Origin: Allacma fusca
Taxonomy: Eukaryota; Arthropoda; Collembola; Symphypleona; Sminthuridae
Length of the DNA stretch: 64,000 bases
Reading direction: 5' to 3'
Assembly: GCA_947179485.1 (NCBI GenBank)
Contig: OX359245.1
Location: 25,841,067-25,905,066 of the forward strand
Under the pieces are notes generated by a model. The model had not been told where the DNA came from. It did no database searches and worked only from the letters and a program-made list of their open reading frames with translations. Made by a program: the position numbers and the translations under genes. Shown piece after piece: positions 18,191 through 40,307 of this stretch. Position 1 is the first letter of the stretch, and every line of letters starts with the position of its first letter.

Positions 18191-19299
18191 CAGAGATGCG
18201 CAGCCATGGAAGGCTAGCCTTCCAAGAAGGCTTCCTTGAAGGCGGAAAGGTAACTATCTTAATGTTGCAGAAGGAACGGAAGGATGAAGATTAGGGGTGA
18301 GTATCTCGTTGGTTTTAAAATTCTCGTTTGTCTCGTTCTCGTTTCTGAAAAAAATACGAGAACGAGATATTTTGATAACGAGAGTAGCGAGAGTAAGCAA
18401 CGCACGAGACAAACGAGACAGGGCAAAAACATGGTATTTGTTTTGAAATATATGCAATTTAATTGTAGCCTGCACAAATTCTGGTGAGAGAACATACAAA
18501 TTTATTTAATTTCACTAAATAGAAAAATCCCAAGGCGCGAAATATTTATTTTTAGGTTTGGGCCATAAAATTTGAAAACACGAACGTGAGAAAAATTAAT
18601 GAAGAACTACCGCAATAAATGCTAGCACCAAGAACTGCAAAATGTCTTAATTGGAAAAATGGCATAGCAAAACACCTCATTTTTCAGTTTGATATGGGTT
18701 TAAACAAGATTTAATTGTAAACGATATTCTCGTTAAATAAAGCGAGATGTCTCGTACTGTCTCGTTGATGTATAAAGAACGAGATAAACGAGATTCTCGT
18801 CTCGTTGTCTCGTAATACTCACCCCTAATGAAGATACTTTTTTCTGAAGGCTGAAGGAAGCCTTCACAAAAACTAGCAATGAAGGATTGTGAAGGAAGGG
18901 TTAATAAATATTAGCCCTATAAGGTCGTGAAGGCTTCCATGTATATGTATACGAAATATCTATAACGTGAAAGCATAGCATATGCAACGACGTTTCGCTG
19001 CTAGTGCAATAATACAACCAATTCGTGATCTCACAACTGACAATGTGTGCCCCTCTCTTCACTGCACTGAATCCTGTTGGTGCAAAATGTTTTTAAGCCT
19101 GTTTTAGTTGTAAAATTGAAAGAAGGCTATTTTTAGAAGAAGGCTGAAGGCAAAAATGAGAGTATATATTTTGGAAGGAAGAGTGAAGGAAGACAGATTT
19201 TTTAGAGGGCTTCATTCTAGGACATGTTGAAGGGGAAATTTTTACTGAATTTTCGTCTTCGAAGGCTTGAAGGAAGGCTATTTCTTTTGCGCATCTCTG
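18191..19299. mobile_element. hAT-like non-autonomous element, interrupted by a second element
   Basis: Ends CAGAGATGCGCA and TGCGCATCTCTG form a perfect 12-bp terminal inverted repeat. Both sides are flanked by CCGTAAAC (18183-18190 and 19300-19307), an 8-bp target duplication typical of hAT elements. The interior is dominated by GGAAGGCTT-type oligomers in both orientations (for example 18206-18245 and 19118-19280). The 536-bp element at 18292-18827 is inserted in it; without that insertion and its 8-bp duplication it would be about 565 bp. No transposase frame is visible. Confidence 0.85.
18292..18827. mobile_element. TAGGGGTGAG-family hAT-like MITE, copy 1
   Basis: A 536-bp element beginning TAGGGGTGAGTAT and ending ATACTCACCCCTA, flanked on both sides by ATGAAGAT (18284-18291 and 18828-18835). 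Subterminal regions are made of CTCGTT/AACGAG oligomers in both orientations; the centre is AT-rich and non-coding. Related copies lie at 39777-40307 and 58531-59072. It is nested in the CAGAGATGCGCA element, so it inserted later. Confidence 0.92.
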
Positions 19300-19514
19300 C
19301 CGTAAACACAATAACTTCGAGCCTTTAAAAGCATGCCATTTTTTTAAACAATGACCGAGTAGATAGAAAAAAGGTGTCTATTGCTTTTGGAAGAGATTCG
19401 AGTCATGGATTTGACCCTTGAAAATTAAAAGAGGTCACATATAAACAAAATATGGGATATTACATGTATGTATGTTAGTTTTATGTTTTTCATTCTAGAA
19501 CTGAATTTTTTAAT

Positions 19515-21848
19515 TTATTGATTGTTAAGAGCAGAAATATCTGAAATAGTAATTAGTTGGTAGACAATTGTTATAATTAGTATGCTGCAATTCAAAAAAC
19601 TCTGGCTGCTTTCACTAACATTCTGATCTATCTTTTTATCTAACTTTTGATTCCAACTGCCACTTCTGTTGTTCTGGTTGAGGTTAAAGCCGTTGCAAGC
19701 CTTGTACCCACAAACACATTGAATCCCTTCTGTAATGAGGTCCCCAAAGGGCTCCGGATTTTCCCATTGTGTACTACATTCCACTTGATTCGGCTTGGAA
19801 ATCTCTCCAAGGGATTTATACCGGATCAAGAACACTTCCCCTCCCAGTCTTCCCGTAGTGGCAGTGCAATGGAACCCGAAGATACCCTTTGATTTCCCAC
19901 TGACCTTAGCTCGTTTCGCAAATCGAGCCTCCATGTCGGTACCCGAGTAGAAATTTTGGTCAGTGCACAGTTATTAGTACGTTAAAAATTGACGTCAATT
20001 GGTCCGAGCAACGTCCAGTTGTGACGTCCAGCTGAATACAATATGTCCGCTTTGACAACGACAGCTGAACGTCAGATACTTACGAAAATATTACTTTAAA
20101 ACAGGACGTCTGGTTTACGCCAAATATCGTCGTTTAGGCAATGCAATTTATGGTCGCCATTTCACCTAGGCTAAAATATTGTTTACTGATTAAATTCTAT
20201 CACAAAAAAATAAATAAGTAGTGCATTTCATTTTCCCTCCAGATAATCATTCATAGGTATTTAACCAGTATTCTTCAGTCCTAATTCCTAATTCCAGATC
20301 TCATTTTCTGCCCCCTCCAAACGGAAAAATGAAATCTGAAAATAACAGAAATATTTATTTTGCATTATATATTTATTTGTAACTTAAAACAAGGCACAAC
20401 AATTAATTACCTACTTTTTTAAAAAACTAAATATTATTTTGCAACTAAATATTATTTAAATCACTGTATTTATTCACAACTTATTTTTTATTTGTCCTTG
20501 TGCATGCAACTGGTAACTGATAGAAGTTGATTACTGGTAGGTATATATACGTAATAGTATTGGTAGCACTTTAAATTATTATTATTGCTCAAAGTTGGCA
20601 GCTATTTGAAGCTATAATAATTATTTTTGAGAATAATTAAAAATTACAATTTCATAACTTATTCACCATTAATAACATCACAACAACTACGTCCTTAACT
20701 ACATTCACTTCTTACCTTTGATATACAGTATACAAAAGTATGTACATATTTAAATCTAAAATTGTAATATCTGTAAGTTGCTGCGGAAATGATACACGAC
20801 TTGTATTTTAATTTAGAATAATAATTTAATTTGCTTACCTGAAAAAATTTACAAACGGAACTGCCAAGCGTTGACTGTTAGAACGTTAGAAGTTAGAGCG
20901 AAGTGATAAATGAGACGTCATTTAAAGTTTGAACTTGGAGCTTATATTATAAGCTTGTATTATAAACTTGGATAAACAGCGCTCTCATCCTCAGCCAGTT
21001 TGTAAATACGCATGTGCCGAGTTTACCATGTTTGACCTAAATTTAACGTTATAATAACGACCGGGTTGACGTAAGGTGTGTATAGGCGGGAAGTGCTAGA
21101 ATCTATTGATATTTACGTCAGGCTCACGTAAATATAGCCTTCGGTATAGTTACTGTCGTTATATGCCCGGAATTTTACGTTAACGAAACGTTATGAATGT
21201 TCTATTAATTAACGTTAGAACTTGATTTTCAAAGAACGCTGTTCTTTTCATTGCAAATTATGTTCATATTTGTGATAGTCACATTGACGTTCATGGGACA
21301 TCCCATATATGACCGAAAATTTGAGTTTAGTCAATTTAACGTCAACTAATGTCAATTACCATATCCAGACGTTCATCTAACCAACCATTTCTACTCGGGT
21401 AATAACTGTGGACGTGGACACATTGGGTAAACGAAAGGAAACAATTCTCATAATTTGTAATACTGTTACTGTTGAATCAAAAAGTTTGGATTCCTTTCAC
21501 AAACCTCGCGGGACCAGGTTCGATTTATTAGCACTAAATATGAGACCCAATGCTCCGTTGAGGTAATCTTTTGGAGGGGCTTCGTTGTCCTCATCGTGCA
21601 AACAGGGATAGTCGAGTGTGTCAATTTCTCCGTCTAAATGGAAGCAATTGAAGCACTCGAGGTCTTTTTCTTTTGCTTCAGCTAGAAAGTATAATTATTT
21701 TATTTAAAATATCCATCCTCTCCTAATCTAACGAATTTATTTTCATTTTTTTAAAAAATAAGTCCTCACCAACAATGCCCACATGATGAAGGTATATCCC
21801 GGAAACTGAAAGGAAATAATGTAGCCAGTACCAGCTGAACCGTTTCAT
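19515..21848 (-). CDS. Ly6/uPAR-like secreted, probably GPI-anchored protein
   Basis: Three exons can be joined in frame: 21848-21770, 21681-21505 and about 19909-19515, giving 216 residues. Exon 1 encodes a signal peptide (MKRFSWYWLHYFLSV...). Exon 2 starts the cysteine-rich domain (LECFNCF, DYPCL). Exon 3 ends it with QCVCGYKACNG, the CxC...CN ending characteristic of three-finger Ly6 domains, followed by a hydrophilic linker and a hydrophobic tail (FLNCSILIITIVYQLITI) that looks like a GPI-attachment signal. Related arthropod proteins include quiver/sleepless, which modulate ion channels; that role is not shown here. Intron 2 contains the 1.46-kb element at 19942-21399, ending only about 30 bp from exon 3. 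The exon 3 acceptor is weak (poor pyrimidine tract), so its exact start is uncertain. Confidence 0.68.
19942..21399. mobile_element. TA-flanked 1.46-kb non-autonomous DNA element
   Basis: Terminal inverted repeat CCCGAGTAGAAA / TTTCTACTCGGG, each end abutting a TA dinucleotide (19940-19941, 21400-21401), as produced by Tc1/mariner- or PIF-like insertion. Subterminal parts carry many AACGT/GACGTC-type motifs in both orientations; the middle is AT-rich and has no long open frame, so a transposase is absent. It lies inside the second intron of the Ly6-like gene. Confidence 0.8.
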
Positions 21849-22462
21849 ATTTTTGTAAGCATCTGCATGTGCACTGCAGATGTGAAACAATGTTTCCAAG
21901 CTGAACCTGAAACTTCAGCAACTTATGGTAATGTTAAATAAAAAATGAGGTTTTAAAAAACCAAAACGAAGATGCTTTTACGGTTCTAAAAAGTGAAAAA
22001 CTAGCATTTGGTGCGGGAGGAATTAGAGCAATAATGAACGATACAAAGCATCTCGGGTGCTACCGAATAATGTATCATGTATACGTATGTGTTTATTATA
22101 ATTAATAATATTATTATTTTAAATTTTATTATCACCCGTCAACAACTACTTACTTTACTTTGTTTTTAAAAAATGATGCTGGGAAAAAATTGTTGTGCGC
22201 CAAAATAAAGAGACTAGACTAAGTTGTTTTTGTACTTCGTTTTTATTCGTGTGTCAACACGTCGTGCCAGTTGTTAATGTCACTTTGGTGATAAAACCAT
22301 GGAGGAAATACAGCCAAACAAGGAATCATATTAAATTATACATATGCAATACACTTGCATGTAATTTCAACTTTAGTTGCTTAAAAGCTCAAGCTGTTTG
22401 CTTATATTTATTACCCGGGAGTACCTCTTTGTTTTGAGATAAAATTATAAACGTGGAGTTAA

Positions 22463-24605
22463 TTAACCTTTGAAGGGTTTTCGAAGTTGAGCTATATTTC
22501 GGGATCCAGTTTTTGATTTTGGAAGGGCATCTTCTGGTCGTGGGTTCTGAGTCTTAACTGGTTCACGGGTGTCTCTATTATCCTCAGGAAACTGAATGTC
22601 GTTCCCCAGAACTCTTTGGAGCATTTTGTGAACCACCTGGACCTGAGCTCCTTTTCTAGTGGCTGTGAACATGAGTATGCCATTACAAATTTTTTAAATT
22701 TATTCCAGTTGGGCTTAAAATAAAGGGAAAGAAATGAAATAATTACCAAAATCCTTTCCGGTGAATCCATAAGTGTCCCAGCACCCAATGTCATTTTCCG
22801 GGGACTTTACGCTTTGAGGAAATACCATAATAATGTTATTAGCTTCCGCCACTTGCAAAAATCCACTGTTCACTGTATGATTCATCCCTAGGAAGTCTCT
22901 GTCAAAATTAATCAAAGTTGATTAAACTATCGATTTGTGCATATACAGCGGTAATTGTTTATTGGGGCAATATATTTGTAAGTACCTGCCGGAGAAGCAC
23001 CCGTGAAAGTAAAAATGTAAATAGCACTCCGCCGGTCTAGACCCCCCAAATCCCGGCCTGTCTCTTCCCGGGTTACTTAGTTTGCAAGCTTTCGGAACGT
23101 AAACAAACCCTACATCGTCCATGTCATGACGCTCTGGGATGAAAAATTCCCTCTGGTTAAACGTTTGCAAGGGTTCCAGCCGCTCATTTCCTTCAGTAAA
23201 AACAAATCATTATCCTAATGTTGTACTAATTAAATACAAATTGCTTGTAATACCATATGACATCGGTAAATAGAAAATAAGCTTTACAAAACAAATAAAC
23301 AAATAACAGGACCATACCTGGTCGTTTGATGGATGGTCCCAATAAAAACTGTAATGATTCCAGTGCCCCAGAAAATCCACAATTTCCAATGTAATCCGTA
23401 TTTGCAGAGGCGTCAGTACATTTACCCCCATAAGAATCCGACGGCTGAAAAAATTTAATTTATAAAAGGAATATAATTCACATTAGTCCATCATTCTTAA
23501 GTCTGGGACTCTAAAAAAATATGTATTGGTTCCCAAAAATTACCAGCAACAGTTCAGCATCCATTACCCGGGTCCGGATATTTAGCGAATTTTGTATCAT
23601 GGGCTCATACAATTTCAGGATATTCAAGCTCATTTCTGAAGTATCACAAACCAAAAAAAATACAAATATAAGGAACATCATTGTTCAGAGTGGTTTTAAT
23701 AAATATTGTCAATAAAAAGAGTCTCTTTGAGCTGCTAACGACAGTGTTTTGTCGCTAAATTGTAAAATTATTACCCGGTGTGAACAGAAAGTTACGTAGG
23801 CCTGTGAACACATATAGTTTTTTATTCTGGAGAAACGCCGGATTCCCAATAAGTCTCTGCTCGTAGAATCGTTGGATGTCATTGAGGGCCATGTTTGGGT
23901 CATACAGCTGGCTGGCCGGAGGGTTGTCCAACTTGGTACATGCGTCATCATAGTCCTTCTGGATCCCATTTCCAGGACCGCATCTGTAGTATGCTAATAA
24001 GATTGTGCAAGGGAATTGTTTCAGTTATTTTTTGTTCTTTCTTCAATCAGAGATGTCAGATGGTACTGTGAGTAAGGCTCTGACCAAATACTTTTAAAAT
24101 GGCTTACTATGAGAAAATACAGCAATGCCACTGAATAAACTCGGATAAGAAAATTGCATCTGCTGTGCAAAAGTTCCTCCACTTGAAAATCCTGATAGTG
24201 TAACACTGTTGTCCCGTATTCGCCATGGTTCTATACATAGATTTGTAAGTTAACCAATTTTTGTATGAGCACTCACATAACCTGTGTATATTACAGTGCA
24301 CTCTCCCTACAAGTTCAACCCTAGAACAGAAACATTTAACGCTCTTTTTTAAAAAATTACGCCGTATCTAGTAAACTTGTTCAAAATGCGTCCCTGGAGC
24401 TAATATTTGCTCTAAAAAGATTCTCATAGTGAGATTGCACTGCATATTGTAAATGAATGTGTAATATATAATAATAAAATAAATGTTTGAGTAAAGCTTC
24501 CTAACGATTACCTAATCTAATGTGTTGGCCGTGGATGGAAATAAATAGTAAAATATTTGTGAGAACAAAGCTCAATAACCGGGGCGACGTGATCAAGGCC
24601 ATCAT
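22463..24605 (-). CDS. PHB-depolymerase/LpqC-type esterase-like secreted protein
   Basis: Eight exons join in frame with no leftover bases: 24605-24512, 24230-24108, 23993-23775, 23635-23544, 23444-23318, 23190-22986, 22898-22747, 22662-22463; 403 residues. A signal peptide (MMALITSPRLLSFVL...) is followed by the alpha/beta-hydrolase nucleophile elbow SGFSSGG (Ser47). The C-terminal half repeats the family's second block: GFVYVPKAC, FYFHGCFSGR, ANNIIMVFPQ, GCWDTYGFTG and FATRKGAQV. Characterised members are secreted esterases cleaving polyhydroxybutyrate or feruloyl esters, mainly bacterial and fungal. Here the triad Asp position reads GLRNFL (Asn140) and the His position reads AELLLPSD (Leu174, where relatives have GHAxVTD), so hydrolase activity is doubtful. 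Eight spliced exons rule out recent bacterial contamination. Confidence 0.88.
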
Positions 24606-26292
24606 CCTCTAAAAAATTGGTCACGGTACTCACTCCTACAATATCTCTTGTGTTCTGAATATAGCGTATGATCTTGTGAATTCTACAGCTAAAACCAAGG
24701 TTGAGTCCAAGATCTTGTACTGAGATCCGTTCTACCCTTCAACTGTCAAAATGCTACTGTTACGGTAATTGTGGAATGGCGAGTTTTACAGCAACTTTTA
24801 TACTTTCGCAAGTGACATGCATATTTTGTGTTTTCAATAAGCAGGTTGGGACTTTGTGCTCACAATTATTGCCAATATTTCGAGTGCATGACGGCAACAA
24901 CTTTTGAGAAGAAAAAATTAACTCGTTATGCATGAAGTCATTCAGTGTTAAAAGGAAAGAGTCACACAAATTAGATACTTTTTAGGGTCAGACCGGGCGG
25001 ATGTCGGAAACCGCTTAATTGTTTACTTCAAGACACGGTACACACAGTGGTGTTGTCTGTTTTCAAGTAATTAATTATGAGCAAATATGCCCCTATACTG
25101 CCTTTTCTACAAAACTATCTCTCTGGACTCTGAACGTCCAATTCCAATTTATTTAAAGTGACGTTAACTTCTTTGTCGCAATTCAGAGGACGTCATGAGA
25201 GATATATTTTTTCATTTCCATTCACATACTATTCTTCCAGTACATAGCTGTAACCATTTCCGGGAGAGTCGTACAAAATATCAATACAAATAATTACTTA
25301 AATCCTGGAGACATTACATAGGTTTCTTTAAAGTTAAAAACATTATATTATAATTAATTAAGTAAATCCGTAATAATTATTACAACCTATACTGTAAATT
25401 ATTATGCATCTAAAGGAAGCAGAAAAGAAATCCAGTCTCTTCTCGAATTCATACTCTATGTTGTGACGGACAATAAAAATTTTAGCACATCCGTTTGGGA
25501 GTGGGTGGTTGCCTTGTGGGTCGACATCTTATTGTTGGCTTTGCCAAGGTAAGGTAAATAAATGAGCATGGAAGCTAGAGTTACTGCGCAACAGCGAGTG
25601 GGACATTATGCTAGTAAATGTAATTTGTGAATTTACACTAGTAATTGTATAAGTAGTTTTTACTCCATGTAAATAATTAGGTCAACAGCAAGGGAAACTT
25701 AAATTCTTTACACGTGTCAAGAGTTATGATTAAGTACTTGTCGTATACATATTCTACGGCATTGTAAGCAGCCATCCATTTAAAACTCTACGCCTAAAAC
25801 CTCAGATTTTACGCGTCCCACCCTCAATTAATGTGAGGCCCACGGATCGCTAATCAGGGGTAGGCCATAACGCCAGCGTAAACTTGTGAATTTGATAATA
25901 AATTTTATTGGTAAAATAAAAATAAGTCTTTATTGGTCATTCAAATGGTGGAAACCCGTTGGATGTACCACTGAAGTGTTGGGAAATTATCACGTGAAAC
26001 GTGTGTCGCTTGAAAATTCCAACTATTTTTTACCGGCTACCTGAAAATATACTTGGATAAAGGGATAATTTTTTAAAACGACCTCTTGTTTCGCAAATTG
26101 AGCTTTATTTAGGAAATACCGTGATCAAAGTTAGTTTCTCATACTTTTACCAAGGCTGTTGGAATGTATAACAAAATTGCATTTAGACAGAAGTTTCATA
26201 ACATTTCAGGGCATTTTGGGCAGTGGGGTAACAAAACTGTACGAATTAATAAAAAAACGTATCATTTAACCCAGACACACAACTAAAACATA
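24606..26292. other. Gene-free intergenic stretch
   Basis: Presumed 5' flank of the esterase-like gene. The short open frames here show no splice linkage, repeats or recognisable motif. Confidence 0.45.
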
Positions 26293-26400
26293 CATATCGT
26301 CGGCTAAATTCGAAAAAGTACCATTTTCATTTCATAACCCATGCTTTAAAATGGGTTCGCAAATGAAAATGGTACTTTTTAGAATTTAGCCAACGATATG
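26293..26400. mobile_element. 108-bp palindromic MITE with TA duplications
   Basis: Near-perfect hairpin: the left arm CATATCGTCGGCTAAATTC and right arm GAATTTAGCCAACGATATG continue inward (GTACCATTTTCATTT against AAATGAAAATGGTAC) to a small loop. TA dinucleotides at 26291-26292 and 26401-26402 suggest a Tc1/mariner-type target duplication. It is non-coding; a structured-RNA role cannot be excluded. Confidence 0.65.
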
Positions 26401-26809
26401 TAGCATAAAATTGACAAAATGTTTATATCAAGGATGGGAATCGGAATCGGTATCCGAATCGGAATCAGAATTATATTCGAAAATTTGAGGATTTTAATTC
26501 ATATTGGAATTCCAAATAATTCCCAGAAAGTATTTTAATTCAAAATCGCATTCAAAACAATTTTTGGAATCGGAATTGGTATTCAAATTTTTTTTACTGA
26601 ATTCCGATTAAAATAAAGTATTGTTTTCAATGGTATATTTCATCAAGTGTACATACTTAAATTTTATAATTGTCGCAATTTTTTACTTACAACGTAAATT
26701 TTATCAAAGAGCATTGGCGAACGTTTTCCTTAAAAAAACTTACTGTTTAACTGTTTAAAAGCTTACGTTAAATTATAGTAATTATTATTAAGAAAGCCCA
26801 AAGGTCTCA

Positions 26810-27115
26810 CGTCGCAAGACCCCGGGACGGCCCCCTGTCGCCGCCCTTGCTACTGTATAATGCTTTAATAGTTTATTTTCTTTGTTTAGAAATACTAATT
26901 TGAATGAGTGGGCCGTCTTGGTACTGAATGGCTGGCCGTGACAATTTCGCCGCCGTTGCTACTGTATCCGGCTTTAATAATTCATTTTTTAATTTAAAAA
27001 AAAAACTAATTCTTTCTTCTAATTTGAAAGAGTGGGCCGGCATGGTGGTAAATGGCAGGCCGTGACAATGTCGCCGCCATTGGTACTGTATAATGCTTGA
27101 ATAATTTATTTAAAA
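26810..27115. repeat. Three imperfect tandem copies of a ~110-125 bp unit
   Basis: The core TCGCCGCC..TTGCTACTGTAT followed by GGCTTTAATAATT recurs at about 26838, 26946 and 27070, with GAGTGGGCCG before copies 2 and 3. GC-richer than its surroundings. It lies inside the 2.0-kb element. Confidence 0.7.
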
Positions 27116-27330
27116 TTTGTAAAAAATTCATTTTAATAATTCATGTAGCGCATTTAAATTTAAATCTCAAATCCGCATTACACCAAGACAAAGACGAAGA
27201 CTGTCCACTCTTTGAATTTAGTAGAGAGGATGCTTTTTTATTTTTTGCGCCTTTTTACTAATGCTTTTTTACTTTTTGTTCTTATTTACGAAGATGATTT
27301 TTTATTTTTTGTTTTTTTAACAATATGCTC

Positions 27331-28156
27331 CAAAGGTGTCCAAATGACTCAGCCCATCCTATATCCTTCCTATTTATAAAATTTGAACCGAGCCTACATA
27401 TATGCCTACATTTTAACCGCCGAATAGTTCAGCCTATCCTACAGATACATCCTTCCTATATGGGGAGCACCAAGCCTACATATTTGCCTACATTTCATTG
27501 ACAAATTAGATCAACCAATTTTACACCTTTCCTACATTTTATATGTTTTTCGTTACTGACAGACGATTTAAGGGCATTCCCCTCTAATTAAAAACAATGT
27601 CTCAAGTCAATGGAATCGGAATAAAATAGTTTAGTTACTTTGGCCAAAGTCCCTAAGAGCGGAACAGCGTCGATCTCGCTTTGGATTGTGTCAAAATTTT
27701 ACAACGTTGGTCAAAAGGGATGTCATACTTAAGATTTCAAAAATTAAATTATACCGCAAGAAACATTTCCAAAGTCAGCTGAACAATAAGACAATTATCA
27801 CAACGGAAATCTATAAGCTGACTGACAACATATCTCAGTAAATCGTGTTTGAAATTTGAATTGTGTTCAAACGAAATTATTTATTTCAGTGGTAAACAAT
27901 CTGCAAGTACCAGTCGCGGATTATTCTTTAATTTTCATTTTGCATGCTCCATATACCATTAAATGAAAATGATGTGCTTCAATAGCCTACATATATGCCT
28001 ATAAATCTATGAAGGCTGAGCCTACCTATTTTGCAGGCTAGGTTTTAAGTGTATATTCTTGCACCCTATTTTGCCTACAAGCCTTTTTAATAAAATCCTC
28101 GCACCCTATAAATAGCCTATAAATAGGCCTATATGTAGGATAGGCGGACACCTTTG
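27331..28156. mobile_element. 826-bp hAT-like element nested in the 2.0-kb element
   Basis: Perfect 11-bp terminal inverted repeat CAAAGGTGTCC / GGACACCTTTG flanked by an exact 8-bp duplication ATATGCTC (27323-27330, 28157-28164). The ends are built from CCTACATAT/ATATGTAGG and CCTATCCTA oligomers in both orientations. Non-coding. Its insertion split the CAAGGAYGGG element. Confidence 0.9.
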
Positions 28157-28436
28157 ATATGCTCTTTTATTTTTTGTACTAATTTTTAAATTAGACGCAG
28201 CTTTCCTATTGGCTCGTAGATTTGGCGCGAAAATTCAAATGAACATACTCACTCCATATAATATAAGATTCAAATTGGAATTCATAATGAACGAATACTC
28301 GAGGATATTTAAATCCATATTAGAATTCATATTTTTCAGTATTGCTATACGTATTTTAAATCGGAATTCTTCGCCTTGAATATTTTAATTCGAATTAGAA
28401 TTCATATTTTTCGGATTTCCCGTCCTTGGTTTATAT

Positions 28437-29728
28437 TATTATTATGTTTCGTAAATCGAAACTACCCTGGATGAAAACTGCCATTAAGTGCCGATGTCGC
28501 ATTGAAACGAGAATGCCTCACATCCTACAACATTTGGGACCGCGAGATGCGCAAAATTTCCTGACAATTTCAAAAGTCAAGAAACAATATAGTCACATTT
28601 TTACGTATGAATCTGGATGATCCTCGCCGTACCCTCTGGAAAGATTCGTAACGGTGGTGCGGTTCGATCGATCAACGTCCAGCGGATATGTTCCGTATTA
28701 AATGTGTTACGCCTAAAACAGTGGATTTTATAATAACACTTCATATACAATATAGCGCAACTTCCCCTGGATTACCTTATACTGATTCTGAGATTCTCCT
28801 GTGTGGGAGTTAAACTTGTAATCAATCACATTTTACCAGAAGAAATACAATTCAATCTGTACTTATGCATTCTAGAAAATAATGGGAATGTAAAAGTTAC
28901 ATCCTGTTTAGATATTTAATGTCTTTACGCGCGTTCACCATGTAACATACTGTGGGGTTCTTTTTATTATGAGACCCAGGCCAGAATATGGATTCATTGT
29001 GCAGAATACATATCCAGGAGTATACAGTAATTAGCAACTATTTTATAACGCAAAACAAACAAGGTCTCCTTGCAGTCCCTGACGCCCTACAGTACAGTGG
29101 TTGCAATTTATCAGACCGTCCACATATATGTAATTAAGATGAGTACGGAGATTTTAAAGAATATAAAATAGTACATACATGTATGAAATTAGCAACCTTG
29201 TTTACGTCCGACCTGGAATCTGTGAAACAATCTAGAAACGCTCTTTGCCACATAAGACAAACAAGAGGTAAAGGCTTAATTAGTTGTACGTAGAATCTTG
29301 TATTCTCTCGCTTTAGGGGGTGCAAAAATATCAAAATACTCATAATACTCTTGCTTTGCAGTATCAGATTTAGAGGGATCACAATCGGTAAAAAAAGTTG
29401 TTGCAGTGTTTTTGCTATCCGAACTGTTGCCATATATATAAATGCAGTAAGTACAAGTACCATACCCAGGATCAATCCCTAAAAAATTATGCAAGTGAAG
29501 TTATTTGCTTATACATTTCTCTGCGAATGCTCTCTCATCGTGTCGGAAATGACTATAGTACTCGTTATCAGTAGGACGAAAGAGATGAAAGATACTTAAT
29601 CCCTGAAAAAAAGGAAATAAGCGGTTCGCATTCTCTACACTGTATTTGATTATGACGAGTACTCCAGATTTACAAAGAGTAATACAAAGAGCCAGCAGTT
29701 TTACGTTAAAAATAGCTAATTTGATTTC
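28437..29728. other. No assignable gene
   Basis: Downstream flank of IMMP1L. Two exon-like minus-strand frames near 29276-29480 and 29510-29606 look partly coding, but cannot be joined with a credible intron and have no start (see rejected items). Nothing else seen. Confidence 0.4.
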
Positions 29729-30421
29729 CTACGACGCTTCGACTGCTGCATCCACCTGGTACGCTGCAGAATCAAATTTGAAGTCGATGGACGGGTAAAC
29801 TTTCCCGAGGCATCGACGTCGAATCATCTCCACCGGAACTGGTCCGTACTGTCGGGAATCTTGGGAATTGAATTTATTGTCACCTTCGAGCCATACGAAG
29901 CCGGATGGAATCTGCTTATAAAAAAATGGGTCAGGATTAAACATTCATAGGTGGTTGCAATGGGCAGCTCTATGGTTGTGCGGAGAAATGTACCGTTATT
30001 TGTTGACCCTGGAATTTGAACTGGTCACCAGCAACTCCGACTACCCTCTTGCAAATACACTGACGATCCATGGGACACCGAGCAACTATGATGTCACCCC
30101 GGTCGATTCGACCCAGCCTTGGGGAAATATGTTCAGTAAGGAGGACATCTCGCGTCCATACTGTTGGCTCCATGCTAGGCCCTACACACTAGGACAGAAA
30201 AAAGCGTCCTCTTGGGCCTTGGTTTCCATACATTCCTTCTCTTAATTCTGGTGTAGTTGGTAAATGGTAATTATTAATATGATAAAAATAACGTAATAGC
30301 TCTTTACCACGACGAAACCGCCAATGTATTCTAATGTGATGAAGGCACCAATCCCAAATTTGGTTACATTTAGTGCTGTGCTCACTGTTTTGGAGACTAC
30401 TCTTCTGAAGAAGGTGGCCAT
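29729..30421 (-). CDS. IMMP1L: Mitochondrial inner membrane protease subunit 1 (IMMP1L)
   Basis: Signal-peptidase-I-type Ser/Lys protease that removes sorting signals from proteins of the mitochondrial intermembrane space (family knowledge). Exons 30421-30308, 30188-29994 and 29914-29729 join in frame to 164 residues, matching the ~166 of the human protein. The N-terminal membrane anchor ends in LEYIGGFVV; exon 2 carries the catalytic serine in GPSMEP (Ser43) and lysine in ICKRVVG (Lys85); exon 3 carries VWLEGDN, DSR and YGPVP, the conserved C-terminal boxes. The CVGPSMEP context resembles IMMP1L rather than IMMP2L. No defect seen. Confidence 0.93.
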
Positions 30422-31163
30422 TTTTCCGGAGAGTATTAAAATATTATATACCGCATTGAAATTATAAAATTCTGTGAAATTGAATGGCACAACCACGGAA
30501 AGGCTATAGAGAGTCACTTTGAATTATTACAATTTCATTAATTTTGCTCTCCTCATCAAATCACATTAAATATTTCAAACTATTCCACCAATCAAAATTA
30601 TTAGGATAAATTATTAATGCTTGATTCCTTGATGTGTGGGTAATTTTAGGAGAATATACTTGATTATTTATTACAAAAATAGAGGGGAAAGGGGGACAAT
30701 CGTAATTTATGTATCGTATTGATTTCATTCATTTTCCAGTATTTGCAGTGATTCAGTCATCTCAATTTGCAAGTTGCAATATTACTACCAAAAAGAGGGA
30801 GAATATTCGGGCTTACAAATATTTTTTTGAGCAATATTATAATATTACAATAGGCCTATTTTGGTTTACGAAAAAGTGCATTTACAACATAATTTTCAAA
30901 TTCTAAACATTTTTTGACGTTGGCGGTTGGGTGAGGATCAGAACTTACAACAACCTATGGAGACGGAAAGACCGTGATTATTTTATTCATGGATTCATAT
31001 ACCTGAGAGTTTTTTTTAAAGGACAGTTCTTTGACTATTTTTCTAGACAAATATTTAGTATGTACATGTATATACATTACACTTAATTCTAAGAACAGCT
31101 GTAACAATAATCAGGTTAATTCATATGTATAAATACGTATTTACGGATAGATGTGTGCGATAA

Positions 31164-31631
31164 CTATCCCCTGAATGTCCTATAGCCTCCGCCTGAAGAT
31201 CCGACGAATGGGGAGACCATCAGCCATAAAATTATAATTGCTACTCCAATTAGGAACACACTGCCAAAAACTACAGTGTATCTACTATTCCAGCAACTAT
31301 TCCTTGAAGAGTCTTGGGGTAGGTTAATTTTCCTATGCCAAGGGGTAGTAACCACGGTGTAAGCATTCACTTCAGGTTGGACAAGTACAACTTTCGTGTC
31401 GCTCGTCCCTGCTAACCCCGAAGGAAGTGTTTCGTTGTTCCAACGAATTGGTTCGCTTCTTGGGGGCTAAAAAGGAGAAAATATGATCTGTCAAAAATTG
31501 TAAATGAGATACAGATGGAGGATATGCTAAAGTTACACTATAGAGGCAAAATTAATTATTTAAACGGTAATAATTCTTACCAACACAACAAAGCCGGTAT
31601 CACTCTTACGATAAATGTTTTCTGAAGCCAT
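31164..31631 (-). CDS. Orphan single-pass membrane protein, 117 residues
   Basis: Two exons, 31631-31581 and 31466-31164, join exactly in frame across a 114-bp intron with good splice sites. The protein starts MASENIYRKSDTGFVVL, has a polar, proline-containing N-terminal half with no signal peptide, one strong transmembrane segment (VVFGSVFLIGVAIIILWLMV, about residues 80-100) and a short Gly/Ser-rich tail ending YRTFRG. I do not recognise a family. Topology would be N-in or tail-anchored-like; function unknown. Confidence 0.6.
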
Positions 31632-32865
31632 TTCAAAAATACTTTATTTTTTCAACGACTACTCTTCCTGTATTATGATTACTGCAGAGATGTAACAATA
31701 AGTGCTAACTAAATTTCTTTATGCATATTTACTTACACATAAATTCTTGAGGATAAAATTCACTGAAAATTTGCTCATGGTGCAGACGTAATCACCGTTA
31801 CACATACGACATGGGTTTTTACTTTGTGGTAGGTTGGCGTCGTGATGTCGTGACTCATCTTTGGACGCATTACAACCGTTGTGCAATCGAGAGTTGTGGG
31901 TTATCCAGTAGCTATTAAATGAGGGCGGTATAAAAAATCTTACTCTGTAGGATTTAGGATTGTATTACAAATAGATATACATAATATAATTAATCATCCA
32001 TGTAGGATTCAAAAATTATAGGTATACTTCCTATCTGGGTCTCAAGCATGGTTCTATAACTATAGTAGGTCTTGGCGCTGTTCAAAATCTTTACTAATTT
32101 TAAACTGGTCTTATAATCCAGACTACTACTAGGCGTAGATGTATGTATATATCTTACGCTACAGCTGACAACGAGAGGATAATTGTGACCAATTCAAACA
32201 CACAAATTCAGTACATGATATTAAATTCTATGAAAACGTCTGAAGTTTGTAATAATAATAATGACAATAATTCAGGAAGCATTGTGTATTTCGGCTCTTG
32301 CCTTCTATGCGGTTACCTTATGTGTTTTACACAGTCAGATGTTCAGCTCTCTATCCCACTTTGGCCAGCCAAAAATTTCATGTGGTTTTCCTTCTACATT
32401 CCTTTATTCTGTTTATGACCGTTGTCACTTGCGTGATGTACAGAAAATAGGAAGCTCTTGCCCGATAATCAAGAACATTACAAGTTTAATGAAGAAACTA
32501 CCTTCCAAAAAGGTTGCGGAATGTTTCTACTACCAAATCATAAAATCATAAGAGCATCAATAATAATTATTATTGCAATGCACCTAGGCGGAAACTGCTA
32601 TCTACGACAAAAATAGGACAAGTGGGAAATGTAAGGGGCTCAATTGTTTAAATAATACAGGAAAAGTGGCTAACCAAAACGCTATGTAAAAACGCTTCCG
32701 GATTTGATTACAACGGGTTTCTTGCTTCAAATAGTTGTACATGCAAAATCAAGGAGATTTCCTACTTTATGCAAAACTCGCGACATAATGAGGAAGCCTG
32801 GGAAATAGAAATGTTTCAGTTTCGCTTCTGGACTCTGCAAGGATTCATTTACAAAATTCTCAATA
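31632..32865. other. Intergenic region between divergent genes
   Basis: Divides the minus-strand membrane-protein gene from plus-strand prophenoloxidase 1 and should hold both promoters. No convincing TATA box, exon or repeat was identified. Confidence 0.4.
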
Positions 32866-35800
32866 ATGTCTCGAAGAGGCGCTAATATTGGTAATCGGGT
32901 GCCTGTTACACGGCCAGCCGATGAAAGAAGCATCAGAGCCGAGCCAGGCATGAAAACCAAGCTCCCTACTCAACAGGAGAAGCTTATGTACATGCTAGAG
33001 CGTCTAGACGAACCTCTGTACATGGGACCGAAAGGGGCAAAGCAGAATGTTCTCTTCGAAGTTGAAATGGACATGATGGTAAGTACTGATTAAAAGCGGG
33101 TTGTTTCCCATATTATACGCAGAGCTCTAATGGAATGACACTGCCCTCAGGTCCTTACGTCTGTGGAAAAGATAACTCAAAACATTTTCCACCAAATTTG
33201 GCAAAGTTGATCCTCATAATAAAATCCTTGAAGAATTCAATTTGGGCTGAAATCATATTCTATTATATACTTTATTCGCAGGATTCAAGCCAACAAATGG
33301 CTACTGAAACTGTCACCAAAGAAGTCAAAGCGTATATCACAAAGAAGCAGAGAAACTTGAAGCCGGTAAAAATTTCCAAGCCAAAAAAGATACCGGATTT
33401 ATCATACATACGAGCGATCTGTCCCCGAAAAGGATTCTTCTCTTTTTTCGTTCCAGTTCATCAGCAAGCTTTTCGGGCACTTTATGACATATTTATGGGT
33501 TAGATTTCCATGCCATTTTGAAATATCAGTAGATACATCAGTGTAAGCCATTTCTGAAACCAGCATGATAGGAAAGTACAAATGTTTTACATCGATGCAC
33601 AGGAGCTGACTCAGTCGAAGAGTTCATTAACATTGCTGCGTATTGCCGAGACAACAGTATGATCAACCCTCATCTGTTTCTATACGCATATAGTAAGGCT
33701 CTTCTGGCAAGGAATGACACCAGAGGGTTCAAGTTTCCCGCGTTGTTTGAGGTCCTCCCCGATGCCTTCGTTAACACCGTGGTGATCAAGCAGGCACAGG
33801 AATTAAGTCGTTTGCCTGAAAAATCCCGAGTACGTAGATTATAAATTGAGCATATATTTTTTTATTGCATAAAATATTATACGCATTTTCAAATACACAA
33901 TGTCAAATAATTCCAACTAGAAAGTTATTTCGGCCAACGGACCGGCCATGATGTCTCAAGCGATGGACAACCCTGATAAGGCCATGAACCCCGATGTGAA
34001 TACTGGGTCGGGCGGAAAAGGTCAACCGTTAATAATTGGTCGGGGCTACACTGGTCGAGATTTTAATCCAGAAAACAGAATGTCGTACTTCCGGGAAGAC
34101 ATGGGCGTCAACTCCCATCATCACCACTGGCATTTGGTTTATGATCGAACGTCTTCCCAAAACAGGAGGGGAGAGTTGTTTTACTACATGCATCATAATC
34201 TTATTGCAAGGTCTATTCAAGCAATTTTCTAAAACAAATTGAGTTAATAACTTGAAGAAATACATGGATTTCTATCTATGTAGTAATTATTGCACACATG
34301 TTCTGATATCATTTAAACATTTGTAGGCATCCGTCAAAAATTGTCTTTGGGCCTGACTTAAAATTTGCTGTTTTATGTCAGCAATTTATGTATGCATAAA
34401 TTATTTTACAGATACGATGCAGAACGGTTAAGCAACGGGCTGGCCAGGTTAAAAAAGCTGGACTTAGCTTGCAGACCTGTTTTGGAAGAGGGTTACTTCA
34501 GTAAACTCACTTTAGCAAATTCCAAAATGGCGTATGCCGGTAGACAAGCCAATACCCCAGTCACTGTACGCTCCTTTCATGCTACACATTACTCAAATAC
34601 ATAATGATTTACCAATAAATTCTTTTTATTGACTGGAATTCTTTTACATTTCCCCGAATTTTAGGACGTCTATATTCAGCCTGACCCCGACGCTAATGTT
34701 AAGTTTGTAAACAAAGTTGAAGTGGAAGATATTCGGAAGCACAAGGATAGAATTTTGGAAGCAATTGACACCGGATATTTAATCAAGGTTAGGGAATCCT
34801 TAGACTTTCAAATTAACTTATCAGTCCTTGCTGTCTATATCTAATAATCATATACTGAATTATCATTCATTTGATAGCGGGAGGTGAAGAACGGAAAGGA
34901 ATTGCTTACGAAACTGGAACTTGCTCCAAATCCGGGAGCTCTAGAGGATCCAGGAATTGATTTATTAGGAAATGTGCTGGAGTCTAATCATTTGAGTGTG
35001 AATATGAAATTTTATGGCTCCTTGCATGTTGAGGGACACATCCTCATGGCTAACTTGCATGATCCCGAGGGACATCATAAAGTAACGTTATTGCTCATGT
35101 TTGCTCAATTTAATATTTTACTTTGAAGTAATTATATAAAGTTCAAACTAGTAATAGTATCTTAAAATCTACATATTTTCAAAAGGGAACTATAATGGTA
35201 AAATTTTGCAGGAGTCATTTGGACCCGTTGGAGACTTACCAACTGCCATGCGGGACCCAGCATTTTACAGGTGGCATAAATTCGTTGATGACATATTCGA
35301 CCACTACAAGCAACAGCTTCAACCATACTCAGAAGCACAGGTATGTCTAGCTCTCTTCATTTGTTTTTTTAAAGTAAAATTCCCGTTTACCTAAATCATC
35401 TCGTAGCTCTGTTACTCTGCAATCTCAACAAATCGGTATCTTTGTTTGTGTATATTAACCATTCATATAGCTACGGTGGGACCCTGTCAAAGTTAGAGAC
35501 ATTTCAGTGAGGACCGATGATATGCCCGGTCCAAATGTTCTGATAACTCATTGGATGCAGAGTGACATTGATTTAGGGAGAGGGCTGGATATCAAGAGAA
35601 ATTTGTTACGAGACGGTCCAGTCTGGGCTCGTATGACTCACTTGAATCACAAGGATTTTCAATATAAAATAAACGTAAGAATTTCGTATTAAATAAAATC
35701 GTAATTACATAATTTCTTTGAGCAGAGGTGAAGGAGGTGTTTGGGCTCATCTGCATCTACATACACCAAGCATATTATTAAGTATTCGTTGATTATTAAA

Positions 35801-36775
35801 GGTTTATTTATTAAGGTGGAAAACACAAGTAGTAGCCCGGTGAGAGGCACGTTCCGAATTTTTATGGCTCCAAGGGACAACGAGCATGGCCAGCGGTTGT
35901 ATTACATTCAGCAGAGGCTACTGTTCTTCGAAATGGACAAATTCGCTCGAGAAAGTATTTGATTCTAAAAATTATACATATTGGTTTGAGACAATGCTGA
36001 TTCAATATAAATATGGTTAACGAATCTATAACGAATTGTTGTAGTTCCACCGGGAAGACATGAGATAATCCAAAAATCCGCGGATTCGTCCGTCACAATC
36101 CCATGGGAACAATCTTTCAAGACATTGGAAGATCAAATCAAGGCGACGAAACAAGAAGACAAGAATACAGACACTGTGTGCGGATGCGGGTGGCCACAGC
36201 ACATGCTTTTGCCGAGAGGACTGCCTGAAGGAATGTTCTTCGACTTGTTTGTTATCGTGACCAATGCTGATGAAGACACCCCAAAGAAAGGTGGTGAGAC
36301 AAATTCTCCGGAAGTAAACTCCACTACTAGGGTCACATGCAAGGAGTCCCTTAGTTTCTGCGGAGTTAAAAACGAAGATTATCCCGATACTAAACCAATG
36401 GGGTTCCCTTTTGATCGGAACCCGTTGAATAACAAGGGGGCAAACATGGATTCACCTCCGGATACTTTGAAAGACTATATATTACCTGACTCGAATATGA
36501 AAGTTGTAGAGGTATCCATAAAAAATGAATAGACATTTATTTTGTGGATGCTTTGAGAATCCCGAAAATGATTGTTTGTAAACATAATCTACCAATTATA
36601 TTTGTATGCATAGGTCCAGATTAACCACCAGCCGTTCACAGTGACAAAGAGAGGTAATGGAGCTCCAGACACGATGCCAGTGATGCCGCCACAACTGGCA
36701 ACTTCCAAACGGACACAGAATAAACCTCCAGCGAGAGAAAGTCGCGAATCTCTGGACTACTTCAATGATTACTAA
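32866..36775 (+). CDS. Prophenoloxidase 1 (type-3 copper oxidase)
   Basis: Zymogen of the phenoloxidase that oxidises tyrosine and o-diphenols in haemolymph and cuticle for melanisation. Twelve exons: 32866-33078, 33282-33498, 33603-33829, 33921-34210, 34412-34565, 34665-34787, 34878-35081, 35212-35340, 35471-35674, 35816-35954, 36045-36511, 36614-36775; 842 residues. CuA site [17 protein letters not shown] (about 285-290) with the third ligand in YYMHHN; CuB site in SLHVEGH (458, 462) and FYRWHKF (498). The C-terminal domain has CGCGWPQHM and MGFPFDR, which mark prophenoloxidase rather than haemocyanin. No signal peptide, as usual for the family. The protein is longer than typical (~690) through N- and C-terminal tails, and the N-terminal domain lacks the usual Arg-Phe activation site. 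Paralogue lies 4.3 kb downstream. Confidence 0.94.
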
Positions 36776-37275
36776 ATTTAATAAATATATAGTTGCAGAA
36801 CAACTTCTGTAGAAAAAGCTTCCGAGGAATTTCTTTCAATATGCCCTGATAGAATCATTTTATGCTTAGAGCTTCAATTTTTACCATTTACTGTACTATA
36901 TCATTGTTCGGGTTGGTAGGCTCTACCGGATTTTGTAACACCGTTGCTCCATTTTGATGTACTTATATATTGGCAGGTGGCGTCAAATGTTGTATTTCCG
37001 CCGGTTGTGTAAACAAATGCAAATGATTTTCCAATGAACTGACAATGAAACAGGTACGTGATTTTAATAGCTCACCAGCTGGGAAAAGCCTTCCGGGGAG
37101 TTACTCACAATCAGTGATGATGATAGTTATTATTGTTATTATTGTTATTATTGTTATTATTTAAACTATTAGCGAACTGTTCTTACAAATATTTATAAGC
37201 GGTAGACACGAATAAATTGTGTTGCAAATTGAGATATTGAATTCATTGTACTGAAAATCATCACAATTATACTTA
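36776..37275. other. Downstream flank of prophenoloxidase 1
   Basis: Non-coding; includes a short TTATTG-type microsatellite at about 37126-37160 just before the minisatellite element. Confidence 0.5.
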
Positions 37276-37284
37276 CGTTATCCT

Positions 37285-38415
37285 CGTGTCCGGCCAACTG
37301 CCACAATCACAACTGCCACACTCACAACTGCCATACTCACAACTGCCACCATAATTTTTTGCCACCGATCCAAAATTGCAAGCGGTAACAACTGCCACCC
37401 GGAGAACTGCCACAAGGCAATGCAAACAGTCTATGCTAAGTGATGTAGCAGAAACCAACACTCATGCAATGGCACTTAGCATAGGATTCGCCATGACACT
37501 TAGCATAGCATTTCGCCATGACACTTAGCATAGCATTTCGCCATGACACTTAGCATAGCATTTCGCCATGACACTTAGCATAGCATTTCGCCATGACACT
37601 TAGCATAGCATTTCGCCATGACACTTAGCATAGCATTTCGCCATGACACTTAGCATAGCATTTCGCCATGACACTTAGCATAGCATTTCGCCATGACACT
37701 TAGCATAGCATTTCGCCATGACACTTAGCATAGCATTTCGCCATGACACTTAGCATAGCATTTCGCCATGACACTTAGCATAGCATTTCGCCATGACACT
37801 TAGCATAGCATTTCGCCATGACACTTAGCATAGCATTTCGCCATGACACTTAGCATAGCATTTCGCCATGACACTTAGCATAGCATTTCGCCATGACACT
37901 TAGCATAGCATTTCGCCATGACACTTAGCATAGGATTTTGCCATGACACTTAGCATAGGATTTCGCCATGACACTTAGCATAGGATTTTGCCATGACACG
38001 TACAATTAGCATATGTTTTGTAATGACACTTACAATTAGCATATGTTTTTGCGATGGCACTTATTGTTAGCATAGGCTTTTGCAATCTAACTTAGCATAG
38101 GTTTTTGCAATGGCACTTAGCATATGTTTTGTAATGACACTTAGCATAGGTTTTTGCAATGGCAATTAGCATGGTTATTTTCAACGACCCTTTTCAATTT
38201 CAAATTTTTAAAAAAGTATTTACATGCAAATTAAGTTTGCATAGATGTGGTATAAGCGTAAGTGCTACAAACGTGATGTGGCAGTTGTGCGTGTGGCAAT
38301 GGGTCTAAGTGGCAGTTGGGATTGTGACAGGTTTTGGTGGCAGTTGTGAATGTGGCAGTTCTCCGGGTGGCAGTTGTGATTGTGGCAGTTGTGGGGGTGG
38401 CAGTTGGCCTAGAAC
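37285..38415. mobile_element. 1.13-kb inverted-repeat element enclosing a minisatellite
   Basis: GGCCAACTGCCAC near the left end is mirrored by GTGGCAGTTGGCC near the right end, and each subterminal region is an array of AACTGCCAC/GTGGCAGTT units (37292-37412 and 38270-38406). CGTTATCCT is repeated directly at 37276-37284 and 38416-38424, a likely 9-bp target duplication (8 bp is also possible). The extreme termini differ somewhat. The core is the 25-bp minisatellite. No coding capacity. Confidence 0.75.
37466..38165 (+). repeat. 25-bp minisatellite
   Basis: Roughly twenty near-identical head-to-tail units of 25 bp containing ACTTAGCATAGCATTTCGCC run from about 37466 to 37990; units then decay into variants with TAGCATATGTTTTG spacers up to about 38165. 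The clean block suggests recent expansion; the decayed block is older. It lies wholly inside the inverted-repeat element. Confidence 0.95.
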
Positions 38416-38478
38416 CGTTATCCTTTATGCGATCATTTTAAAAATATGTCAGTTAGTTATTTAAACTACAATCGTTTA

Positions 38479-38983
38479 TAGTGTTTCTGAACGGTACCAA
38501 AACATGAACTCGACCCGACTCGTTTTCCCGAACCGAAAAAAATCCCAATTCTGTTCCCAAAACCGGAACCGGTATTTTCGAGTCCGGGACATTTTTGGCT
38601 TCCCGGAACCGATCCGGAAAATAAAAGCGGTTCCCGAACCGGTTCCGGTTCCTTTCCAAACAGTCATGTTCAGAAAAAAAATGTATATGATTCATTTTTA
38701 TGGAAGCCAAAATTGTATCACATTTTCAAATGATAGTTGACAAATGCTGGCCAAATGCAAGTTTCGCGTTTTCATACAAAACGGCAGCTTTAACAAACCA
38801 TTCCCGAAAACTTTCGGTTTTGATTTTTGTACCCGAAACCGGACCGAAATTTGACGGTTCATAAACCGATGACCCGAAACCGGACCGAAATGTAACGGTT
38901 CTTTAAAACGTTGACCCGAAACCGTACCGGAACCGAAACCGAACCGGAACCTCGGGAATTCCCGATACCGAACAGAAACACTA
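38479..38983. mobile_element. 505-bp hAT-like MITE
   Basis: Ends TAGTGTTTCTG and CAGAAACACTA are perfect inverted repeats; ATCGTTTA flanks both sides exactly (38471-38478, 38984-38991). The interior is filled with GAACCGG/CCGGTTC and CCCGAA oligomers in both orientations. Non-coding, and only 64 bp from the minisatellite element. Confidence 0.9.
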
Positions 38984-38991
38984 ATCGTTTA

Positions 38992-39776
38992 CAACATTAT
39001 TTTAATAATGTATGAAAGGTAATGTCCGTAACAATACCGGTAATGTTACCTATTACCAGTTCCAATAAAAAAAACATCGCTACGCGATAATTTCAGACTT
39101 CGCGTAGGGTGGCGCCACCTACCGCCGTCAAAGTTGGATGAATTTTGAGTTTTTTTTTTCGAAATTTCCGATTTTTTTTCGAGAAAACTATCTGGTCGAT
39201 TTTAATAAAATAAACAATAGCATTACTATTTACATAAGCAATATTCACAAAAAATGTCATTGAAATTGATACAGTAGTTTTGGTGATAACCGTCATTTGA
39301 CTTGAATTTCGTCAAGTATTATTTTCTCAAAAACTATCCGCCTGATTCCAACCAAGTATGAACTCAGGATTAAGGTTGATACAAATAATGTCCATAAACA
39401 ATTTAATTGAAATCGGTTCAATAGTTTTTGAGACATCGTGTGGAAGGACACACTGACGTACAGAGAAGGTTATTTAACTAGAGTTCTGACTCCTCCCGAA
39501 AAACCGTTATTAGTACTAATAAGTAACCCTCGCCACATGCCCACTAGGGATCTTACAATTAATGAAATTTCTTATACCCTTGGACTTTTGAGAAAACCAG
39601 TGCGAGTAGTAAGCTTCATTAGGTCAAAGGTCAATATCGACTACTTCAACACATTACAAAATATAGGCATACCAACAGGCACTCATGCGCCGTCTTTTAC
39701 TGTGATCATTACAATCGTATCTTTGGTGGATTGTCTTTGTGGCCACCTGAAGCTAAAGCATGATTCATAACTGGAT
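38992..39776. other. Unclassified, possibly repeat-derived DNA
   Basis: Contains runs such as CAATAGTTTTTGAGACATCG next to ACACACTGACGTACAG, a composition often seen in interspersed repeat tails, but I could not find element ends. The open frame at 39438-39770 has no recognisable similarity. Confidence 0.3.
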
Positions 39777-40307
39777 TAGGGGTGAGTATCTCGTTGGTTT
39801 TAAAATTCTCCTTTGTCTCGTTCTCGTTTTTGGACAAAATACGAGAACGAGATATTTTGAGAACGAGAGTAGCGAGAGTAAGCAATGAACAAGACAAACG
39901 AGACAGGGCAAAAAAATAGTTTTTTTTGTTGAAATATATTCAATTTAATTGTAACCTGCATAAATTCTGGTAAGAGAACTTAGAAGTTTATCGAATTCAC
40001 TTATCAAATCAACCTCATGACGACAAATATTTATTTTCGGGTTTGGACCACAAAATTTGAAAACATGAAAACCTTGAAAATAGTAAATGAAGGCCTTCAG
40101 TAATAAAACCTAGAACCAGGAGATGCAAAATGTCTCAAATTGCCAAAACAACCCCATTTTTCAGTCTGATATTGGTTTAAACAATATTTAATTGCAAACG
40201 ATATTCTCGGTAAATAAAGCGAGATGTCTCGTACTGTCTCGTTGATGAATGATAACGAACGAGACAAACGAGATTCTCGTCTCGTTATCTCGTTATGCTC
40301 ACCCCTA
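39777..40307. mobile_element. TAGGGGTGAG-family hAT-like MITE, copy 2
   Basis: A 531-bp copy in the same orientation as copy 1, with the same TAGGGGTGAGTATCTCG start and CTCACCCCTA end. Exact 8-bp flanking duplication AACTGGAT (39769-39776, 40308-40315). Internal CTCGTT arrays are conserved; the centre has diverged from copy 1. Confidence 0.92.

Follow-up and report, generated by a model that had tools for sequence, protein, structure and literature searches.

Why should a handful of transposable elements within a few tens of kilobases of one genome each fill their ends with copies of a different short word? The question is raised by a 64-kb stretch of the springtail Allacma fusca (C1:25841067-25905066 of the 393-Mb assembly, hereafter the window), in which an initial annotation described six elements with exact 8-bp flanking duplications and terminal inverted repeats (TIRs), together with a seventh element of similar build. 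It is very likely, judging from the comparisons of ends, copies and transposase genes given below, that the words are subterminal transposase-binding sites, one per hAT lineage, and that the six elements are non-autonomous hAT elements of five families. As the ends of hAT transposase genes themselves also have such words, the words most likely serve as addresses by which a transposase finds its own elements.

All six elements were found where they had been described (Table 1). When the entire 64 kb were scanned for exact 8-bp direct repeats around 11-bp inverted repeats (at most one mismatch, element length 150-4500 bp, low-complexity repeats excluded), exactly these six, E1 to E6, were returned, and there was no hit in any of 10 Markov-resampled control windows. 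When the scan was rerun with 7-bp repeats the single hit lay within E5, and with 9-bp repeats there was none in the 64-kb window. TIRs of hAT elements are short and begin with CA or TA, and the terminal bases of the scanned elements agree with this rule. E2 and E6 are 86% identical and belong to one family, so the six elements make five families. Among the miniature inverted-repeat transposable elements (MITEs), E2, E4, E5 and E6 measure 505-826 bp and E1 about 560 bp without E2. Four open reading frames (ORFs) of at least 90 amino acids overlap E1-E6, and none of the four has a Pfam match. Two features had been missed, a third copy of the CTCGTT family (E8) and a foreign repeat inside E3.

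Table 1 Features of the window and loci elsewhere in the genome that match the transposase locus L055 without a break.
Feature	Position	Strand	TIR	Flanking duplication	Words and remarks
E1, hAT-type MITE	18191..19299	.	CAGAGATGCGC	CCGTAAAC	GAAGGC/CCTTCA; interrupted by E2
E2, CTCGTT-family MITE	18292..18827	+	TAGGGGTGAGTAT	ATGAAGAT	Nested in E1
E3, hAT-type element	26429..28428	.	CAAGGA(T/C)GGGA	GTTTATAT	Arm word GGAAT(C), weak; contains another repeat and E4
Repeat inside E3	26758..27322	.			Part of another high-copy repeat (39 best non-self places)
E4, MITE	27331..28156	.	CAAAGGTGTCC	ATATGCTC	GCCTA/CCTACA/CCTATA; inserted in the inner repeat of E3
E7	37285..38415	.		8-9 bp	25-bp minisatellite flanked on either side by terminal AACTGCCAC arrays
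E5, MITE	38479..38983	.	TAGTGTTTCTG	ATCGTTTA	CGGTTC/CCGAA
E6, second CTCGTT-family MITE	39777..40307	+		AACTGGAT
E8, third CTCGTT-family copy	58531..59072	-			Both ends retained; no clean duplication in the flanks
L055-like locus	C10:43467665				Unbroken
L055-like locus	C9:4052329				Unbroken
L055-like locus	C12:46631772				Unbroken
L055-like locus	C12:10583141				Unbroken
L055-like locus	C1:53824325				Unbroken

The families had been predicted to be multi-copy, and the four that were searched (E1, CTCGTT, E4 and E5) all are. First-look candidates across the genome, which are unconfirmed counts, numbered 722 for E1, 509 for the CTCGTT family, 1185 for E4, 659 for E5 and 288 for E7, and 40 were scored per family. 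All 40 scored places of E5 are full length and 96-100% identical, which marks this family as young, and the scored places of E4 include two further full copies that are 100% identical to rounding. The 8-bp duplication also recurs, as expected, in copies outside the window. It is exact and private in 4/4 E1 copies read (of 40 listed) and exact in 6/6 E5 copies read. For the CTCGTT family, the 30 loci read were those most similar to E6, including E6 itself; both ends are present in 26 of them, and the duplication of these is exact in 22/26, has one mismatch in three and three mismatches in one. By family, 8-bp duplications were found in the window and in other copies for E1, E2/E6 and E5, in the window copy and through the empty site for E4, and in the window copy only for E3. 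Both nested insertions show the empty sites predicted for them: the E2 site is unbroken in 4/4 E1 copies read, the window copy having E2 plus a second ATGAAGAT, and the repeat harbouring E4 has a single ATATGCTC in 3/3 copies read. The 39 best non-self places of this repeat all start at query position 330/331 and stop at 882-894.

The 25 CTCGTT duplications with at most one mismatch have the consensus nTnnnnAn, with T2 in 23/25 and A7 in 22/25, which is the Ac/Hermes-type target preference and is shown here for this family, while T2 and A7 occur together in 0/5 E1 duplications read. The nTnnnnAn rule has been described for Hermes (PMC10512250), and the Ac and Buster groups are split by their targets (PMC3942097).

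That the subterminal DNA is almost wholly one oligomer had been stated for every element, and the words are dense in five of the six. In E1, E2, E4, E5 and E6, and in E8 as well, the best 6-mer reached the floor (p=0.0033) of a comparison with 300 dinucleotide shuffles, and none of 73 non-element 700-bp intervals of the window reached p<=0.01. The words lie at the ends, with 0-1 copies in the middle of an element when end zones of 150-260 bp are selected per element. They occur in both orientations, which are intermingled within single ends of E2, E4 and the transposase locus L077, and the two ends of an element are not mirror images. The arrays of E5 are partly tandem, with 41-bp and 17-bp repeats.

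The CTCGTT words are conserved like terminal repeats. In 27 copies (E2, E8 and 25 of the 30 loci, five incomplete ones having been removed), the consensus of half the copies defined the word columns and divergence was taken from the other half. Words diverged by 1.9%, the TIR by 2.7%, other subterminal bases by 7.3% and the interior by 8.8%, and the words were less divergent than other subterminal bases in 50/50 splits. A three-copy test agrees with this result: E2 equals E6 in 84/85 columns where E8 has a word, compared to 185/207 other subterminal and 182/232 interior columns.

Autonomous partners sharing ends with the MITEs had been anticipated, and one was found for E1. The PF05699 profile gave 860 candidate transposase loci, of which 150 were scored and 106 read with at least 700 bp downstream. 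At one of these, L055, a Dimer_Tnp_hAT domain (E 6.6e-16) is followed by GAAGGC arrays and then by CGCATCTCTG, the TIR of E1, and 55/60 terminal bases equal those of E1. A 923-base exon-plus-tail query from L055, with the Dimer domain at query 376-600, matched 44 other stretches, five of them unbroken from 393-404 to 910-923 (Table 1). One match runs from 426 to 919 (C1:826555) and others are fragmented; at 22 places the match is limited to 731/735-923 (88-89%), and six of these are E1 copies. Unbroken matches on the one hand and tail-only matches on the other indicate a single repeated element that comprises exon, array and TIR and whose end E1 carries. Judged by shared word and shared end, L055 is the transposase-bearing partner of the GGAAGGCTT family. 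A left TIR was sought for L055, L082 and L119 and was not found in the stretch read.

Further resemblances appeared when the ends of the window families were scored against 22 known transposase-locus ends, with a null maximum for each comparison. The right end of E3 resembles L095, a locus with words of the GGAATC type (18.5 against a null maximum of 7.5). For the left end of E3, where the null maximum was again 7.5, L082 gave 9.0 and L095 gave 7.5. The right end of E4 scored 9.5 with L112 (null maximum 9.5), and the words CCTACA and ATAGGC are carried by L106 and L112. For E2 the left end reached 6.5 with L088 (null maximum 5.5) and the right end 2.0 (4.5). A derivation of E5 from the CGGTTCGG lineage (L084/L101) was considered and rejected, as the word is alike and the TIR differs, with a left score of 6.5 and a right score below 0 or unlisted.

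Pieces of the window families also stand beside other sequences. Six equal-scoring places, L065 among them, hold E4 bases 355-821, and GTACCTG words adjoin the fragment in the one that was read, so that it seems, from this arrangement, to be carried there by another element. L065 was rejected as a longer relative of E4, since the fragment lacks the E4 TIR and lies next to a different word array. At L090, where an E4 copy is listed, the E4 tip CAAAGGTGTC starts exactly where another hAT element stops. In the window itself, a solitary TTAGGGGTGAGTGATAC at 18121-18137, about 55 bp left of E1, resembles the tip of the CTCGTT family; its sole inverted partner among the matches listed is the right tip of E2.

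The proposal that the words are codes of several transposases gains from other hAT lineages, which have words of their own at the 3' end and, in L077 and L101, at both ends. L077 spans 3331 bp with ATTTGGAT at either side and the TIR TAAGGTTCTCAAC, and its outer 520 bp contain 28 copies of CGGATA, against one in the intervening 2811 bp. L101, of a related lineage, is 1.85 kb long with CCAGGATC at either side, encodes a 356-aa transposase remnant, and has CGGTTC 14 times at its ends and not at all between them. The 106 loci were grouped into 57 lineages at a domain identity of 75%, and arrays were called at p<=0.01 within 700 bp downstream. Such arrays occur at 43/105 loci (L125 removed) and in up to 30/57 lineages, counting those with at least one member; 30 is an upper figure, as the array of L109 belongs to a neighbour and MITE flanks are also array-rich. 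The CAGGTAC array of L109 lies beyond the end of the element, its lineage being counted among the 30 nonetheless, and the GAAGGC array of L125 comes from a truncated copy of E1 that lies next to a different hAT gene, so that L125 was excluded before these counts were made. MITE flanks were dropped as a control, since they themselves hold such elements.

The arrays follow both the borders of the elements and the relatedness of their transposases. Homology ends at a TIR-like end in 11 of the 16 lineages with two comparable copies, as read by eye. At the 16 loci (15 lineages) that leave room for equal windows on both sides, of the 21 with a known end, those of L035, L037, L095, L106 and L112 being set by eye, the count of the top word was higher inside than outside the end in 14/16, equal in one and lower in one (Wilcoxon p=0.0005). 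Word sharing falls with domain identity: the top word is shared by 14/15 pairs at >=0.75, 10/36 at 0.6-0.75, 12/114 at 0.5-0.6, 6/157 at 0.4-0.5 and 30/581 below 0.4 (48/852 for all pairs below 60%). In related lineages the words are graded and several are variants of one another, so that to call the families unrelated, as had been done, is too strong. GGATAGG occurs 7-8 times per right end in L077, L054, L078 and L119 and is absent from L082, L105, L084 and L101; GGATCGG occurs 8 times in L082, and GGTTCGG 6-9 times in L084 and L101. GGATCGG is present in the GGATAGG-rich L077 and L119 as well, at 2-4 per end. L082 retains the TIR tip of the L077 lineage, TAAGGTTCTCA, at a domain identity of 51-54%.

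Several results weigh against lineage-specific binding sites. In the arms of E3, for which a near-complete array had been too strong a statement, 6-mers are not significant (p=0.19 in 300 shuffles); 5-mers reach p=0.007, and the right end has only two word copies. No array was found at p<=0.01 within 700 bp downstream in 27/57 lineages, and arrays were present at that threshold in 20/120 flanks of MITE copies, so that an array that follows a transposase gene may be part of an adjacent element, as at L109 and L125. The expected partners did not appear for the CTCGTT family (E2/E6) and the GAACCGG family (E5), for which nothing convincing was found by words at the 106 loci read of 860 candidates or among the 22 known ends. 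The left end of E5 scored 10.0 with L119, a lineage with CGGAT words (null maximum 4.5), and its right end 2.5 (4.5), while the left end of E4 is about equally close to L038 (14.0), L106 (13.5) and L112 (13.0; null maximum 9.5). The excess conservation of words could in part be due to the history of source elements. Finally, the same word-array architecture occurs in the non-canonical E7.

E7 is the seventh element, to which a 9-bp duplication had been ascribed. With the left tip fixed, the duplication is 9 bp in 4/5 copies (the window copy and three others) and 8 bp in the fifth; the right tip of the window copy is shorter by one base, and two copies can be read as 10 bp. The tips (CGTGTCC vs GTTCTAG) do not match, leaving E7 without the duplication and TIR of hAT elements, and it is not a canonical hAT element. 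As it nevertheless has arrays, terminal word arrays are not a mark of hAT elements only. Its minisatellite (37469-37999) has 21 copies of a 25-bp unit that are 98% alike, and in copies elsewhere the span of the minisatellite part varies.

Could the arrays have arisen without a transposase reading them? Neutral slippage, that is microsatellite-like growth that happened by chance in MITE ends, would fit the partly tandem arrays such as the 41-bp and 17-bp repeats of E5, and the shift of most words in an array looks like repeat homogenisation. Slippage is nonetheless improbable, given that the words stand in both orientations with irregular spacing close to the ends, that L077 and L101 each have the same word at either end, and that in the 27 CTCGTT copies the divergence of words is little more than a quarter of that of other subterminal bases. 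Fold-back structure, in which inverted word copies would matter by pairing and not as a sequence code, draws on the presence of both direct and inverted copies. We regard it as extremely improbable, because structure alone would not preserve one word across scattered copies and because a single end of L077, E2 or E4 already mixes the two orientations.

Other alternatives concern which protein the words would serve. A host factor could likewise maintain words at ends, as host-protein sites or as promoter or silencing signals, and hAT-derived host proteins with diverse words do exist in the part of the literature compared (PMC8097297). A single host factor, however, leaves both the lineage-specific words and their link to domain identity unexplained, which makes this explanation quite unlikely. 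There is similarly little probability that one or a few transposases move all families and that the words are incidental family markers. TIR tips are indeed alike between families and the left end of E4 is near three lineages, but L055 bears the very end and word of E1, and none of the five E1 duplications read has the target pattern of the CTCGTT family.

If the words are instead binding sites of one transposase lineage each, a mechanism can be proposed. We infer that BED fingers bind the words, that the two ends are synapsed jointly and that MITEs are mobilised in trans. The array over the outer ~150-260 bp of both ends would provide the predicted binding sites for the BED fingers of one lineage, and several bound copies would draw both ends into the transposase assembly. 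The short TIR would then be cut and joined to a target with an 8-bp duplication. MITEs would retain the ends of a transposase-bearing relative and use its enzyme, and lineages would drift to different words, most copies of an array shifting jointly, to give many recognition codes in one genome.

DNA reading by BED fingers is known for few proteins, and the loci offer a first indication of how the codes might change. Joining two exons of L077 gives a match (E 4e-4) to 2ct5, the BED finger of ZBED1, and Pfam reported no BED domain on the piece of L119 that was searched. The helix pieces of the GGATAGG-rich L077 and L119 read GNMGYH and SNIGYH, with GY at two positions, and those of L082, L105 (GGATCGG) and L084 (GGTTCGG) read TNMRNH, TNLNNH and ANMKNH, with RN, NN and KN. 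L077 and L119 have kept both the word and the GY residues at 65% domain identity. An apparent association of helix residues with the word across these five related lineages is a lead only. It is conceivable, if rather doubtful, that tens of hAT lineages split by switching the BED recognition helix and most array words in step, with little cross-talk between them; the presence of GGATCGG in GGATAGG lineages makes this less probable.

Elsewhere in the window, a stretch of 1462 bp at 19940-21401 lies between 18-bp inverted repeats (TACCCGAGTAGAAATTTT); ACGTC/AACGTTA words were seen there by eye, not above shuffles, and an 8-bp duplication was looked for and not found. A second stretch of 303 bp at 61743-62045 lies between 22-bp inverted repeats and contains TGACGTCA, with no duplication longer than 2 bp found. 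Exons with Pfam matches are located at 13959-14489 (BIR), 41865-42149 (Hemocyanin_N), 45866-46279 (Astacin) and 56764-57189 (COesterase), and 6/10 window ORFs scanned were without a match.

That hAT transposases bind multiple subterminal motifs is an established finding, so the kind of element described here is already known. In the parts of the sources compared, Hermes has 17 and 14 AAG(T/C) sites in its two ends and a BED zinc finger (PMC10368747). The elements of A. fusca resemble it in their many short sites toward both TIRs, in both orientations, with asymmetric ends and an 8-bp target, and differ in that their words are longer (6-10 bp) and vary by lineage in one genome; the number of sites is not higher, and the words are read from sequence here. 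Herves has the subterminal motif CG/AATTCAT, and the same source recounts Ac, Tag1 and Tol2 (PMC3143072); in each of these an element-specific subterminal word is bound by the element's own transposase, each having been studied singly. Subterminal motifs are also bound by a hAT transposase in Kat1 (PMC4763223). Buster1 has TGGGTCGCG subterminal tandem repeats, and such repeats have been used to distinguish hAT elements (PMC4298943). This hAT family too is non-autonomous and has a tandem subterminal word of its own, but it is a single family of the Buster group, whereas the CTCGTT family has an nTnnnnAn target. For CGGBP and hAT-19 domains, the motifs of 4/4 hAT proteins match subterminal regions of their elements (PMC8097297). 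Diverse words are bound there by hAT-type BED/Hermes domains too, although these belong mostly to domesticated host proteins and were measured by protein-binding microarray.

The new part is the scale of word-bearing lineages within one genome. In the literature compared in part, with Repbase outside the comparison, no account of these families or of the hAT elements of this springtail was noticed, and no count of lineage-specific words in one genome linked to transposase lineage. Word-rich hAT ends occur in plants and other animals as well, and for this reason no claim is made that families of this kind are unknown. Tens of transposase lineages in a single genome, many of them marked by a word repeated at their ends, would amount to a set of natural protein-word pairs available from sequence alone. 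Such a genome allows one to ask how the recognition code of a transposon family can shift while the family keeps its own ends, and it is a possible source of orthogonal transposases for laboratory use.

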